A stretch of DNA of 64,000 nucleotides, taken from assembly GCF_039641995.1 (NCBI RefSeq), contig NZ_CP087714.1:1240001-1304000 (forward strand), in the 5' to 3' direction. Source of the DNA: Geoglobus acetivorans. Lineage in GTDB: Archaea; Halobacteriota; Archaeoglobi; Archaeoglobales; Archaeoglobaceae. This document shows positions 56,248 through 62,690 of the stretch, piece after piece. Made by a program: the position numbers and the translations under genes. The first letter of the stretch is position 1. Every line of letters begins with the position of its first letter. The notes under the pieces were generated by a model that was given only the letters and a program-made list of their open reading frames with translations, did not search any database and was not told the DNA's origin.

Positions 56248-57389
56248 TTGCCGGGCTTGTACCTGGAATCCACCCAAATACATTTTCGGCGTTAATTCTC
56301 GGAGCATCTTTTTTGTTTTCTGCCCATTTTACTGGCAGCGAAATTGCGATAATGATCTTCGTCTCTTCTGCTGTCTATTCTGTGGTCAACATCATTCCGG
56401 CCGTTTTTGTGGGTGTTCCGGACGAAGATACTTCGCTTGCAGTATTTCCTGCTCACAGAATGGTTCTTGATGGTGAAGGATTTGCTGCCATATCCATTTC
56501 GGCTGTTTCGAGCTTTCTTTCATCTCTGTTGTGTGTCCCTGTTTACTACCTCATTCTGCTGGCAGGTAAATCAGCAGACCTTTCACCGCTCACGACCCCT
56601 GTTTTAATTGCTGTTGCGACATACCTGATTCTCATTGAGGACGATAGGTTTGGTGGCAGTTTCGCAAAGTGGAAGAAGAGGCTTTTGGCAGCGGTCGTGT
56701 TTCTGCTTTCAGGCGCCATCGGAGTGATTTCGCTGAGACACTTCTATTCGGATGGCATTTCCATGCTCTTTCCCCTTCTAACCGGTCTTTTTGCCTTTCC
56801 AACCCTCGTTGCGGGGATAAATTCTGAAAGCATTCCCGATCAGAGGATTGAATTCGTTTTTCCGGAATTTAAAAACGTCCTGAAGGGAGTGGTTTCGGGT
56901 CTTTTTGTCTCGCTTTTTCCGGGAATAAGTTCTGGCGTGGCAACGGCAATATCTGTTGGGAGAGGGGATGATGAGAAAAAGTACATCTCCTCGATAAGCT
57001 CTGCGAATACTGCTAACACGATCCTGAATTTTGCAGTTCTTCAATCAGCAGGTAGAGCCAGGAGTGGGACTGCAGACGCTTTCCTTTACTTCACGTCTCC
57101 TGAAAACTATGGTTATTTGCCCATTCTGGCTCTGTCCGCATCTTTTGTAGCTATGGCGTTTTCTCTGCTGATCTCAGTTCCGGCTATGGGTTTTTTCAGC
57201 AGAATAAGCCCATCAAAGTTATCGAGGTCAGTGATTGCATTTCTGATCTTCGCTGTTCTCTACTTTACTGGCTTTGATGGGATCGCAGTATTTTCTGTTG
57301 CATCTGCAATCGGGATGCTCACACTTTTATTCAGGGTGAGGAGGATCCACTGCATGGGCGCAATAATCCTTCCCGCGATTCTCTACTGA
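56211..57389 (+). CDS. TctA-like membrane transporter (DUF112 type)
   Basis: 392 residues with about ten hydrophobic segments. Two related halves each begin with a Pro-Gly motif: GLVPGIHPNTFSALILGAS near residue 16 and SLFPGISSGVATAISVGRG near residue 238, the inverted-repeat signature of the TctA family. In bacteria TctA works with TctB and a binding protein TctC for tricarboxylates; no such partners lie here, as is usual for the archaeal members. Substrate unknown. The start lies inside the previous gene. Confidence 0.78.
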   Translation: MAPELLGFILGVIAGLVPGIHPNTFSALILGASFLFSAHFTGSEIAIMIFVSSAVYSVVNIIPAVFVGVPDEDTSLAVFPAHRMVLDGEGFAAISISAVSSFLSSLLCVPVYYLILLAGKSADLSPLTTPVLIAVATYLILIEDDRFGGSFAKWKKRLLAAVVFLLSGAIGVISLRHFYSDGISMLFPLLTGLFAFPTLVAGINSESIPDQRIEFVFPEFKNVLKGVVSGLFVSLFPGISSGVATAISVGRGDDEKKYISSISSANTANTILNFAVLQSAGRARSGTADAFLYFTSPENYGYLPILALSASFVAMAFSLLISVPAMGFFSRISPSKLSRSVIAFLIFAVLYFTGFDGIAVFSVASAIGMLTLLFRVRRIHCMGAIILPAILY

Positions 57390-57811
57390 GTTCTGAATCT
57401 GCCCTTTTCTATCTGCTCTTCCAGTTTTCTGACGAATCTGTCCCCTGTCTTGACAACGGGAATAATCGTCGTGTCTCCCCTGAGCATGTCCACTCTGTCA
57501 GTGTATTCGTAGCTGTCGTTATGGTTGTGGTAGAGAATCCATCTTCTGTATCCATCTACTTCTGTAAATGCCGAGTACGTTATTATTTCCACGACTATGA
57601 ACTTGTCTTCAACAATGCCATGGAGTGTCTCGAAATCCACAATATAGAGTCTTTTATTGAAGTAGAACACCCTCTGAACCTCGAGACCAACAGCATTTCT
57701 GACAAAATCCTGGAACTCAAATTTTTCAGGATCGTCAATAACTGCCGGTCCGTGGTATGAAATGTTCATGGGCCTGAGAATCCGATCAGGATTTAAAAGC
57801 TTCACCTCCAC
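57383..57811 (-). CDS. hypothetical protein
   Basis: 142 residues, not recognised. It is beta-rich (KRLYIVDFETLHGIVEDKF; IVVEIITYSAFTEVDGYRRW; ILYHNHNDSYEYTDRVDML) with a positively charged helix at the end. No metal cluster or membrane segment. Overlaps the convergent TctA-like gene by seven bases; upstream it is divergent from the HPS-RraA gene. Confidence 0.55.
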   Translation of the reverse strand: MEVKLLNPDRILRPMNISYHGPAVIDDPEKFEFQDFVRNAVGLEVQRVFYFNKRLYIVDFETLHGIVEDKFIVVEIITYSAFTEVDGYRRWILYHNHNDSYEYTDRVDMLRGDTTIIPVVKTGDRFVRKLEEQIEKGRFRTQ

Positions 57812-57852: not shown

Positions 57853-59151
57853 ATGGATAAGCCCATACTTCAGGTTGCTCTTGACCTTGTTGAGTTAAAA
57901 AGAGCTGTTGAGATTGCAGGAGAAGCTCTTGAAGGTGGTGCCGACTGGCTTGAGGTGGGTACGCCCCTCATAAAGAGCGAGGGGATGGATGCAATCAGAG
58001 AGATCAAGAAGAGGTTCAGGGTGAAAACCCTTGCCGACATGAAGACCATTGATACCGGTAATGTTGAGGTGGAGATGGCTGCAAAAAGTGGTGCCGACAT
58101 TGTGATAATCCTCGCACTGAGTGACGATTCCACGATCCAGGAGGCAATCAGGGCAGCAAAAAAATACGGTTCCGAGATTATGGTGGACATGATAAACGTC
58201 CCCAATCCGGTTGAAAGGGCGAAAGAGCTTGAGGAGCTTGGTGTTGATTACATAAACGTGCATGTTGGAATAGATCAGCAAATGAAGGGAATGGATCCCC
58301 TTGAAATCCTGTCAAATGTTGCGAACGAGGTCAGCATTCCCGTTGCGGCAGCAGGTGGTCTGGATGCTGAAAAGGCTGCAAACTGTGTTTCTCTGGGCGC
58401 AAGCATAGTTATTGTGGGTAGCAATATAACAAAGTCAAGAAATGTTGTGGAATCCGCAAGGAAGGTTAGGGAGGCAATAGATAAATCATGGAAAAGCGGA
58501 AAGAAGGTGGAACTGAAGAAAAGAGAGCTTGACGAGGAAATAAGAGAGATTCTGATGAAAGTCTCCACACCCAATATCAGCGATGCGATGCACAGGGCAA
58601 GGGCCATGAGGGACGTGCATCCTGTCGTGAGGGGGAAGAAGATTGTGGGGAAGGCTGTAACTGTCAGCGCCTTTGATGGTGACTGGGCGAAACCAGTAGA
58701 GGCAATAGATGTTGCTGGAAAGGGAGATGTTATCGTTATAAAGGTTTCAGGAGATAACGCAGCAGTGTGGGGTGAGCTCGCCACGAGGAGCTGCATAAAC
58801 AAGGGGATTGAGGGAGTCATCATTGATGGGGCAGTGAGGGATGTGGATGATATCCGGGAGCTTGGCTACCCGATCTTCGCAAAAAGAGAGGTTCCCAATG
58901 CCGGTGAGCCAAAGGGGTTTGGTGAGATTAACGTGAAAATTGAATGTGGCGGGATTGAGGTCAACCCTGGAGACTGGATCGTGGCTGATGATAACGGCGT
59001 GATGGTGATACCTAAGGAAAGAGCATATGAGGTGGCAAGAAGGGCACTTGAGGTCAAAAAACATGAAGAGAGAATCAGGGGTGAGATAGAGGACAAGGGA
59101 AGAACCCTCGCAGAGATTGTGGAACTTTACAAATGGGAAAAGGTTCAGTAA
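57853..59151 (+). CDS. hps: 3-hexulose-6-phosphate synthase fused to RraA-like domain
   Basis: 432 residues in two parts. Residues 1-210 are a hexulose-6-phosphate synthase of the OMP-decarboxylase superfamily: [39 protein letters not shown] with the Asp-x-Lys-x-x-Asp motif, and [18 protein letters not shown]. In archaea this enzyme runs in reverse to make ribulose 5-phosphate plus formaldehyde. Residues 230-432 are an RraA/4-hydroxy-4-methyl-2-oxoglutarate aldolase-like domain: [45 protein letters not shown] and [17 protein letters not shown]. The second part may be an aldolase or metal-binding scaffold; its job in the fusion is unclear. Confidence 0.87.
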
Positions 59152-59157
59152 ATTGAT

Positions 59158-60438
59158 TCATCTTTTTTCAATCATGTCAATGTATCCCGGAGTTTCCGGT
59201 TCGAGTATTTCTCTTACAGATTCTACGAATTCTCCATAAATGTGGGCGTCGAGCGCAAAGTGGTAGTATCTGTGGGTGCTGAACCCGCACATCTCTGCGA
59301 GATATCTGGTAAGCAGGTTGAATGCAAACATGTTTGCATGCATGGCACCATAGGCATCGTTTGAACGCATGTAGAACAGTCCGAAGAATGTTTCATTGAC
59401 TCCGAACTGGTACCCTCTCAGACATGGCGGCTCGTCGCTCGTGATGTCCCATGGTCTTGAAATTCCTATGTAGCAGTCTCTCCTGCTTTTTCTCTCTTTC
59501 AGCTTCTGTATTACTGTATACAGCTGGTCGACACTTATCTCGTCTTTCTCACAGTATCTTGCCCTCTCGGCATAGGTGTATGTTTCTCCCTCTTTGAGTA
59601 TGTTCTCTTTAACCTCCCTGTCTATCGCACCTGCGTGAATGACGTAATCGTGGGCGTATTCAACACCGTATTTCTTTGTGAATGGTGCCTTGTCGTGTAT
59701 CTGGTTTTCTTCCGGATCCTTCACCTCTATGAACATTCTGTGGATGTATTTGCTCTCCTCCTGTCCTTCAAAAAGCTCGCCCCACTCCGTTCTTTTTGAG
59801 TCCCCATGGTAGTAGATGGTTTCAAGGGCTGAATGCCAGGCGGAGGAGAGGTAATCCTCCACTATATGGGTACCGAGCTTGTGAAATCCGAGAATCTCCG
59901 TGTATTGCTCTTTGCTCACTCTATCAACATCTCTCTCGTAAATGTGGGGGATCGAGATCAGCATCGCCACACTTCCGGCTTCAAAACCGGCATTTCTGGA
60001 AACTTCCTCCAGAACATGGCTGACAAAGCTGAAATTGGGCGTGAAGTAGTTAACAGCATCAAGAGATCTGAAAAATGCTGTAGCATGCAGCCTGTCATCT
60101 GCGTAAAGGAGACTTATCTCTGTTATTGCCGGTGGTGTATCACACAGGTGGTCTTTTGGCCTCCACACGGGGATTGAAACCCTTCGGGTGTACGGGACTT
60201 TTTTCAGCTTCTCTATTGCATCACTGATGCACTCCTCAACCCTTTCAGAGTATGTTTCTCCACAGGCTTTCCAGCCGCTCGAGTCAGGTTCAAAGTCTGA
60301 AGCCGGGTTTTCAGAAATCACGAGCTGAGGCCTTCCTCTCAGCTCTGTCCCGTATTTTGAGGAGAATTTCCAGTTCTCGTTAATTATCTTGGAGATCAGC
60401 ATTTTCTGGAGCTTTTCAGGGTCTTTTGCGATGAGCAT
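59158..60438 (-). CDS. double-domain thymidylate synthase-like protein
   Basis: 426 residues holding two ThyA-type halves. The second half (about 228-426) has EGETYTYAERARYCE, ISRPWDITSDEPPCLRGYQF with the catalytic-type Cys339, YMRSNDAYGAMHANM and FALDAHIYGE. The first half repeats these: WRPKDHLCDTPPAITEISLL (Ala104 at the Cys position), FFRSLDAVNYF and SIPHIYERD. So only the second half could attack dUMP. This resembles archaeal ThyA-like proteins in duplicated form; ordinary ThyA is a homodimer, so the fusion may be a built-in pseudo-dimer. It might be thymidylate synthase, a pyrimidine hydroxymethylase, or another folate enzyme. Convergent with hps-rraA by six bases. Confidence 0.75.
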   Translation of the reverse strand: MLIAKDPEKLQKMLISKIINENWKFSSKYGTELRGRPQLVISENPASDFEPDSSGWKACGETYSERVEECISDAIEKLKKVPYTRRVSIPVWRPKDHLCDTPPAITEISLLYADDRLHATAFFRSLDAVNYFTPNFSFVSHVLEEVSRNAGFEAGSVAMLISIPHIYERDVDRVSKEQYTEILGFHKLGTHIVEDYLSSAWHSALETIYYHGDSKRTEWGELFEGQEESKYIHRMFIEVKDPEENQIHDKAPFTKKYGVEYAHDYVIHAGAIDREVKENILKEGETYTYAERARYCEKDEISVDQLYTVIQKLKERKSRRDCYIGISRPWDITSDEPPCLRGYQFGVNETFFGLFYMRSNDAYGAMHANMFAFNLLTRYLAEMCGFSTHRYYHFALDAHIYGEFVESVREILEPETPGYIDMIEKR

Positions 60439-60524: not shown

Positions 60525-60598
60525 GCGCCGGTGGTGTAGCCTGGCTAACACAGGGGCTTGCCGAGCCCCTGCCCCGGGTTCGAATCCCGGCCGGCGCA
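60525..60598 (+). tRNA. tRNA-Gly (GCC)
   Basis: Plus-strand cloverleaf: acceptor GCGCCGG pairs with CCGGCGC, anticodon stem-loop GGGGC-TTGCCGA-GCCCC gives GCC, T arm GGGTTCGAATCCC, discriminator A. No CCA encoded, no intron. A T-rich run follows 13 bases on. Confidence 0.95.
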
Positions 60599-60706
60599 TT
60601 CATACGACGTTTTTTCCAGTCTGGGGTCTCTCGCTCTCTCTTTTTTCAAAATGCAGGTCTGGGAAAACTTTTTTAACTTGTATGGGAAGATAATCAGGGC
60701 GGTAAG

Positions 60707-61987
60707 ATGAATGGTGTGAGAGTGGGTATTGACGAAAAGGTTCCGCTTGACAGAGCGGTGGTTCTTGGGTTCCAGCACGTGCTTGCGATGTTTGGTGCGA
60801 CGATCACAGTCCCCCTCGTTGTGGGCAATGCCATCGGCCTTGAGCAGCACCAAATAGCACTGCTGATTCAGGCAGTTCTGCTTGCGATGGGAATTGCAAC
60901 AATTCTTCAGACTACGATAGGTTCCAGATATCCAATTGTACAGGGATCGAGCTTCGCTTTCATTCCTGGTCTCATAAGCATCGGGGGTTCAAGCGGTCTG
61001 GCGGCGGTTGAGGGTGCACTTATCGCGGGAGGTATTATCGAGGCGATTTTCGGTGGTCTCGGGATTGTTGGAAGGCTCAGGAGACTGTTCACACCCCTCG
61101 TTACAGGAGTGACGATAATGCTCATTGGGTTCTCGCTGGCACACGTTGCGGTGAAGTATGCGCTGAACTTTTTTGCCGATCCTACAGCCGCTTCAGCTCC
61201 AAAGGCTTTTGCTATCGCTCTGATAACATTTGCCGTAACTGTGACTGTTGCATTGAAGGCGAAGGGATCGCTGAGGGCGATGCCTGTCATAGTGGGTGCA
61301 GTTGTAGGTTACATTGTGAGTATCCCTCTCGGAATGACGGATTTCACTCTTGTGAACGAGCTTCCAGTATTCAACGTTCCATCGCTGTTTCCATGGGGCA
61401 TTCCAGTTTTTGAGGTTTCAGCGATAATAATCCTGCTGTTTGCATATATGGTCAGCATAATAGAGAGTGTTGGAGATTATCACGCAATTTCTGCAATTTC
61501 CGAAGCACCGATTACGAAAAAGCACATAAACAGAGGTATCATGAGTGAGGGAATCGCATGCACGATTGCAGGAGCGCTGGGTGCGTGCGGAACAACGAGC
61601 TATTCTGAGAACATAGGGCTTGTGGCGCTCACCAAGGTGGCGAGCAGGCAGGTGGTGCAGATTGGAGGCATCATCCTCATCGTCATAGCAATGTTTCCGA
61701 AGTTTTCGGGTTTGCTTGCATCAATTCCTCAGCCTGTCCTGGGCGGTCTTACAGTTGCTCTCTACGGTATGATCAGTGTTACTGGCCTGAGGCTTATCAA
61801 GGAAAAAGTTGAGCTTAACGACAGGAACGTTCTGATTATCGCAAGTGCGCTCATTGTCGGGCTTGGCTCCCCGCAGCTTCCACAGGAGTTCCTTGAGCAT
61901 TTCCCGAGGCTTATTGCAAGCATTCTTGAGTCCGGAATGGCTGTCGGAGCAATAACCGCCATTATTCTCGACCAGGTTTTGAGGTGA
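60707..61987 (+). CDS. uraA: uracil/xanthine permease (NCS2 family)
   Basis: 426 residues with about twelve hydrophobic segments. It starts ERV-like: [20 protein letters not shown], then [20 protein letters not shown], a classic NCS2 opening. The substrate motif is in [19 protein letters not shown] and the family Gln/Glu-type site in [33 protein letters not shown] is the second signature. Pairing with upp (four bases downstream) makes uracil the likely substrate. Confidence 0.92.
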
Positions 61988-61991
61988 TGTT

Positions 61992-62690
61992 ATGATAAAG
62001 GATGGTAGGTGGGATGGAGTTTACACGATGGAGGACTCCCCGTATCTTATGGAGGTGCTGACCGAACTGAGAGACAAAGAGACTGATTCAATTCCGTTCA
62101 GAAAGGGTCTTGTAAAATTTGGGAGATTCATGGGCTACGAGATAATAAAAACGATGGAGATTGAGAAGATAACTGTTGAGACGCCTCTTGAGGAGACTGA
62201 GGGAGTGGTCGTCAGAGACAGAAAAAATGTGGTAATAATAACTGTTCTGAGAGCCGCTGTTCCAATGATGGAAGGACTTGTGAAGGTTTTTGAACATGCC
62301 AGAATAGGTATTGTCTCTGCTGTGAGGGGAAAGGCTCCTGAGTTCAGGGTTGAGATGAACTACATTAAGGTACCCCACATAAGCGACGAGGACACTGTCA
62401 TAATTGCAGACCCAATGATTGCAACAGGCTCAACTCTCCTTGAAGTTATAGCCGAGATAAAGAAATACGGCAGTCCCAAGAGAATCATTGTGGCGGGAGT
62501 TCTCGGTTCTCCTGAGGGCATATCGAGAATTAAAGAAAAACACCCTGACGTCGAAATATTCGTCGGAAAGGTCGATAGAGAGCTTAACGATGATGGATAT
62601 ATCCTTCCAGGGCTGGGAGATGCAGGTGACAGGGCTTTTGGATTGCCGGTGAAGCTTTCAACGCTTCCACAGCTGAGGAGTATTGAATAA
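61992..62690 (+). CDS. upp: uracil phosphoribosyltransferase
   Basis: Salvages uracil to UMP with PRPP. 232 residues. The PRPP loop is [18 protein letters not shown] at about residues 137-154; [20 protein letters not shown] and the C-terminal uracil-binding [16 protein letters not shown] are typical. It forms an operon with the permease upstream. The T-rich stretch at 62711-62728 probably ends transcription. Confidence 0.95.

Follow-up and report, generated by a model that had tools for sequence, protein, structure and literature searches.

The tandem ThyA-like gene of Geoglobus acetivorans most probably encodes (with a probability of about 0.78) a thymidylate synthase (TS) with two ThyA domains per chain, arranged as an internal pseudo-dimer with one working site. 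Positions are those of the window, i.e., the whole stretch of 64,000 nucleotides of DNA that was analyzed. In the proposed mechanism, a single chain with two packed ThyA domains would replace the ThyA homodimer in the conversion of dUMP to dTMP. The C-terminal half (C-half) would provide the nucleophile Cys339, Asn369 and Asp361 for reading the base, and R358, S359, H399 and Y401 as ribose and phosphate contacts. The N-terminal half (N-half), with its own nucleophile lost, would reach across the boundary between the domains to complete the C-half site, mainly through contact of Arg85-Arg86 with the dUMP phosphate, and would also act as the dimer scaffold. Methylene-tetrahydromethanopterin (methylene-H4MPT) would probably be the carbon donor in place of methylene-folate.

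Textbooks describe thymidylate synthase, a drug target, as a homodimer, and to our knowledge its reported half-the-sites reactivity is still unexplained. A natural, heritable one-site form in most of an archaeal order would make the half-the-sites question testable without engineered heterodimers, the question addressed being whether one site beside a dead partner is as good as two. With one half for chemistry and the other apparently only for completing the active site, the enzyme would be an asymmetric version of a symmetric pair. The tandem protein also points to the likely dTMP synthase of Archaeoglobales, whose representative in this study was without the folate enzymes DHFR and FolD.

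Gene and Domain Organization

The open reading frame was uninterrupted and contained two matches to Pfam Thymidylat_synt (PF00303; 67 and 37.5 bits, both above the cut-off of 24.3), with 103.3 bits overall for the whole protein (Table 1). No Pfam family other than PF00303 was matched by the gene, including the ThyX family Thy1 (PF02511). With TIGR03283 (thy_syn_methano, the archaeal TS equivalog), the whole protein scored 151.2 bits, below the cut-off of 174.55. An annotation or frameshift artifact was ruled out, as the intact ORF recurred in about 40 distinct sequences.

The earlier note had described ThyA landmarks in both halves, and these were found as PPA (102-104), RSLD (124-127) and HIY (165-167) in the first half and as PPC (337-339), RSND (358-361) and HIY (399-401) in the second. 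It had also assigned a nucleophile to the second half only (Cys339, with Ala104 in the first). This pattern held across 43 tandem orthologs, and was thus neither chance nor a sequencing error.

Table 1. Positions in the window of the tandem ThyA-like gene, its domains and its active-site residues
Feature	Position	Strand	Evidence
Tandem ThyA-like gene, 426 aa, whole ORF with stop	59158..60438	-	ATG start, two PF00303 matches, orthologs
N-terminal ThyA-fold domain (aa 1-186), catalytically dead half, predicted arginine donor	59881..60438	-	Domain match, alignment, structure prediction, Foldseek, sequence profile
C-terminal ThyA domain (aa 187-426), catalytic half	59158..59880	-	Profile matches, alignment
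Ala104 codon, place of catalytic Cys (E. coli C146), first half	60127..60129	-	A35/T2/S1 in 38 Archaeoglobales; A3/S2 in 5 others
Cys339 codon, catalytic nucleophile place, second half	59422..59424	-	Cys 43/43 (38 Archaeoglobales, 5 others)
Arg85-Arg86 (E. coli R126-R127), predicted reach into dUMP phosphate site of second half	60181..60186	-	RR 43/43; role from PMC5981203
Arg320-Asp321, R126-R127 equivalent in second half	59476..59481	-	Second position: Asp 35, Asn 1, Thr 1, unread 1 of 38 Archaeoglobales; Arg 5/5 outside the order
Arg124-Ser125 (E. coli R166-S167), kept in dead half	60064..60069	-	43/43
His165-Ile-Tyr167 (E. coli H207-x-Y209), kept in dead half	59938..59946	-	His and Tyr 43/43
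Arg358-Ser-Asn-Asp361 (E. coli R166-D169), catalytic half	59356..59367	-	Invariant
Asn369 (E. coli N177, dUMP-specific Asn), catalytic half	59332..59334	-	Asn 43/43
His399-Ile-Tyr401 (E. coli H207-Y209), catalytic half	59236..59244	-	His and Tyr 43/43

Fold Prediction

The full chain, modeled as a single chain by AlphaFold2 from an input of 18 orthologs, reached a pLDDT of 85.6 and a pTM of 0.89. Failure of the first half to fold as ThyA had been named beforehand as the result that would overturn the reading of two ThyA domains. Modeled alone, the first half reached a pLDDT of 90.4 and a pTM of 0.87, and its best structural neighbors were ThyA-fold enzymes, an outcome in favor of that reading. 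Its Foldseek neighbors were thymidylate synthases and (d)CMP-modifying relatives (E down to 4e-13; TM normalized by query 0.64-0.78), and a search of the PDB with a profile built from just the first half also returned thymidylate synthases (E = 4e-9).

Active-Site Residues

An alignment was made of both halves of the 43 tandem proteins (38 from Archaeoglobales and 5 from outside the order), 44 single-domain ThyA from archaea and E. coli ThyA, and residues were compared at core positions, cofactor-site residues outside the core being aligned with low confidence. The equivalents of E. coli C146, R166, S167, D169, N177, H207 and Y209 were all present in the C-half (43/43). In the N-half, position 146 was Ala in 38 proteins, Ser in 3 and Thr in 2, and never Cys, and the equivalents of D169 and N177 were kept in most of the 43.

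In E. coli ThyA, R126 and R127 are on a loop that touches the dUMP of the opposite protomer, and the heterodimer of wild-type and R126E/R127E protomers had one functional site, in the mutant protomer (PMC5981203). Decay of the tandem protein was reciprocal at these places: the half devoid of Cys kept RR (43/43), and the half with Cys had RD (or N or T in place of D) in Archaeoglobales. A register error at the Arg pair of the C-half was ruled out, the segment being free of gaps relative to the other C-halves.

A one-site pseudo-dimer would be expected to show this reciprocal loss of Arg and Cys, which is hard to square with pairing of C-half with C-half. Such pairing between chains, C:C and N:N, would leave no internal pseudo-dimer, and would instead give two ordinary sites plus an appended scaffold domain. 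The ThyA enzymes known so far form homodimers, the long C-half could do likewise, and the structure models were of single chains, all of which would be compatible with C:C pairing. That arrangement was nonetheless very improbable, given that Asp321 would sit where the dUMP phosphate needs an Arg, that the N-half is the one that retains the required RR, and, as indirect support, that the pTM of the single chain was high (0.89).

The internal pseudo-dimer was thus preferred. The earlier interpretation was upheld in part. Its fused pseudo-dimer with a single dead site was supported by domain matches, predicted structures, residues that do not vary and the reciprocal pattern of Arg and Cys, and the packing of N-half against C-half within the chain is a prediction.

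A further role for the dead half in the same enzyme would be that of a regulatory pocket for dUMP, dTMP, dTTP or a pterin that tunes the active half, with binding through R124, S125, H165 and Y167 together with one Arg from the C-half, which would be an evolved variety of half-the-sites behavior. There is room for it because those four residues were kept in all 43 N-halves, even though the site is incapable of chemistry. The six N-half pocket positions checked were also more conserved than the remainder of the half (Mann-Whitney p = 0.001). Outside Archaeoglobales, the nucleophile alone was missing from the dead site, which kept the RR of its partner together with Asp and Asn. Against these observations, the partner Arg (R127 equivalent) was replaced by Asp in Archaeoglobales, and the equivalents of Asn177 (N28/D9/T1) and Asp169 (D29/E6/N3) drifted in the N-half of the same order, both changes being expected to weaken the binding of a nucleotide; R166, S167 and their neighbors may be kept for folding or for the interface. 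Regulation through the dead half was judged unlikely, and would be more plausible outside Archaeoglobales than within. In the three tandem proteins of genus g6 that were aligned, the dead half had Asp in place of Asn177.

Distribution, Origin and Selection

A two-domain relative was found in 31 of the 38 genomes sampled from Archaeoglobales, host included (52-94% identity), 2 of those 31 being represented only by fragments in poor assemblies. Genera g2, g8 and g12 were those of the order without the tandem protein. The ortholog from the same genus (L006) and that of Geoglobus sp. (L033) each had 429 aa and 77.4% identity to the query. When 295 genomes from across the phylum were searched with the archaeal ThyA model, the two-domain layout was recovered in three more families (f17, f26 and f29), as tandem ORFs of 475, 498 and 528 aa that were 34-40% identical to the query along most of its sequence. 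The remaining ThyA genes of the phylum whose sequence was examined were single-domain. The fused layout is, on the sequences compared, an old, conserved family and not a peculiarity of the host genome.

The five tandem genomes outside Archaeoglobales had 2-4 methyl-coenzyme M reductase (MCR) alpha genes apiece, which suggests that the genomes of the three additional families are those of Syntropharchaeum/Alkanophagales-like alkane oxidizers.

In the maximum-likelihood tree of the halves, all N-halves formed one clade (99/95) and all C-halves another (100/98), both apart from the sampled single-domain archaeal ThyA (99/96). A recent, separate duplication in Archaeoglobales was ruled out, the tree that held both Archaeoglobales halves together being rejected (p-AU = 0.001). 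From these two clades and the rejected constrained tree, the history read from the sequences is either a single duplication and fusion before the tandem families split, or transfer of the fused gene whole. It may be further speculated that an ancient archaeal lineage made half-the-sites behavior covalent, that the dead half is a retained nucleotide-sensing pocket in control of the one catalytic site, and that the multi-MCR families and Archaeoglobales are successive stages of degeneration; this scenario was regarded as quite unlikely.

The N-half evolved faster than the C-half (mean identity 47% vs. 66%). Its dN/dS was about 0.07, similar to that of the C-half, as calculated from the one pair with unsaturated dS. 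The N-half is under purifying selection, and pseudogene decay of the first half was ruled out by this ratio and by 19 invariant positions.

Probable Thymidylate Synthase Function in the Host

No match to ThyX (Thy1) and no second ThyA were present anywhere in the closed host genome (1.90 Mb), which ruled out a normal ThyA or ThyX elsewhere doing the real work. Neither DHFR (DHFR_1) nor FolD was found in the host genome, and Mtd, the F420-dependent methylene-H4MPT dehydrogenase, was present.

The occurrence of ThyX was compared in 43 Archaeoglobi genomes of good quality (completeness of 90% or more, contamination of 5% or less). The tandem protein occurred without ThyX in 33 of 36 genomes, the 3 genomes with both being all from genus g6, and ThyX was present in all 7 genomes without the tandem protein (Fisher p = 4e-6 by genome and p = 0.009 by genus, the latter being the fairer value because the genomes are related). 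ThyX was absent from the 5 tandem genomes outside Archaeoglobales. Both tandem ThyA and ThyX occurred in genus g6 (Archaeoglobaceae; genomes G011, G022, G031, G228 and G282).

As the sole TS candidate in its genome, and with a pattern of non-homologous replacement relative to ThyX, the tandem protein is very likely a real dTMP synthase, an activity predicted from strong genomic evidence. Its carbon donor is probably methylene-H4MPT and not methylene-folate, judging from gene content, because DHFR and FolD were absent and Mtd was present. An H4MPT cofactor has also been inferred for the ThyA of some archaea lacking H4F (PMC9012536), and archaeal thymidylate synthases have been scarcely characterized (PMC9931769, PMC9012536).

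The earlier note had also raised the possibility of a different reaction, and this part was disfavored: all dUMP-site residues checked were present in the second half, including Asn369, and no other TS candidate existed in the genome. A ThyA-fold enzyme with another activity could, for example, hydroxymethylate at C5 or hydroxylate a pyrimidine nucleotide, and CMP and dCMP hydroxymethylases and a phage flavin-dependent dCMP hydroxylase were among the top Foldseek neighbors. Short archaeal ThyA may, however, lift small, insertion-free ThyA folds in such a ranking. The dCMP hydroxymethylases have Asp at the Asn177 place. With the dUMP-type Asn invariant in the active half and the protein largely exclusive with ThyX across relatives, another reaction was considered extremely improbable, and dTMP synthesis was retained as the predicted function.

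Other combinations of ThyA genes were observed in the phylum. An Archaeoglobaceae genome (G034, a bin 72% complete) had neither the tandem protein nor ThyX, and had several divergent single-domain ThyA-like genes (L069, L136, L147 and L149), the majority of which lay on one contig. Two genomes of family f21 (G098 and G137) had second ThyA copies (L137 and L138), flagged for in-frame TGA, beside a normal archaeal ThyA.

Gene Neighborhood

The tandem gene was directly adjoined by a gene for a fused hexulose-6-phosphate synthase/RraA-like protein (HPS-RraA; NF005442, 717.8 bits; 57853-59151, plus strand). The linkage to HPS-RraA and TctA neighbors was kept within Geoglobus and was not found beside the gene in other Archaeoglobales; since these neighbors were kept only in Geoglobus, no functional inference was drawn from operon context. 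An ORF of 142 aa (57383-57811, minus strand) was also kept in Geoglobus (67-72% identity) and had no Pfam match. The other side of the ThyA gene (60525-62690, plus strand), oriented opposite to it, contained tRNA-Gly(gcc) followed by a xanthine/uracil-type permease and a uracil phosphoribosyltransferase, and is a pyrimidine-salvage neighborhood.

Comparison with Known Systems

No description of a fused or pseudo-dimeric ThyA was found in the open-access literature searched. Among the closest known systems is the archaeal TS of methanogens (TIGR03283, single-domain, about 220 aa), with which the tandem protein grouped in a rooted quick tree, and not with bacterial ThyA. Fold and core active-site residues of the second half were shared with that family. 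The tandem protein differs from it in having two domains, one without a nucleophile, in scoring below the equivalog cut-off, and in forming a clade of its own.

Protist DHFR-TS likewise combines a ThyA domain with another domain in one protein, and its TS domains still homodimerise. The partner domain is DHFR in the protist enzyme and a second ThyA domain in the tandem protein, whose host has no DHFR_1.

Like the E. coli ThyA homodimer, the tandem protein would build its active site from two ThyA units, with the core equivalents in the C-half and those of R126-R127 in the N-half. Unlike it, the tandem chain joins unlike domains, with one predicted site per domain pair, and identity between the two proteins was about 24% over 148 residues. 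The engineered E. coli heterodimer (Falk et al. 2016, as reported in PMC5981203) resembles the tandem protein in having one site, located in the protomer that lost the Arg donor. The heterodimer is engineered and non-covalent with the Arg pair alone changed, whereas the tandem protein is natural and fused, and has lost Cys in one half and Arg in the other. The tandem protein is thus probably a fused, naturally asymmetric ThyA with one site.
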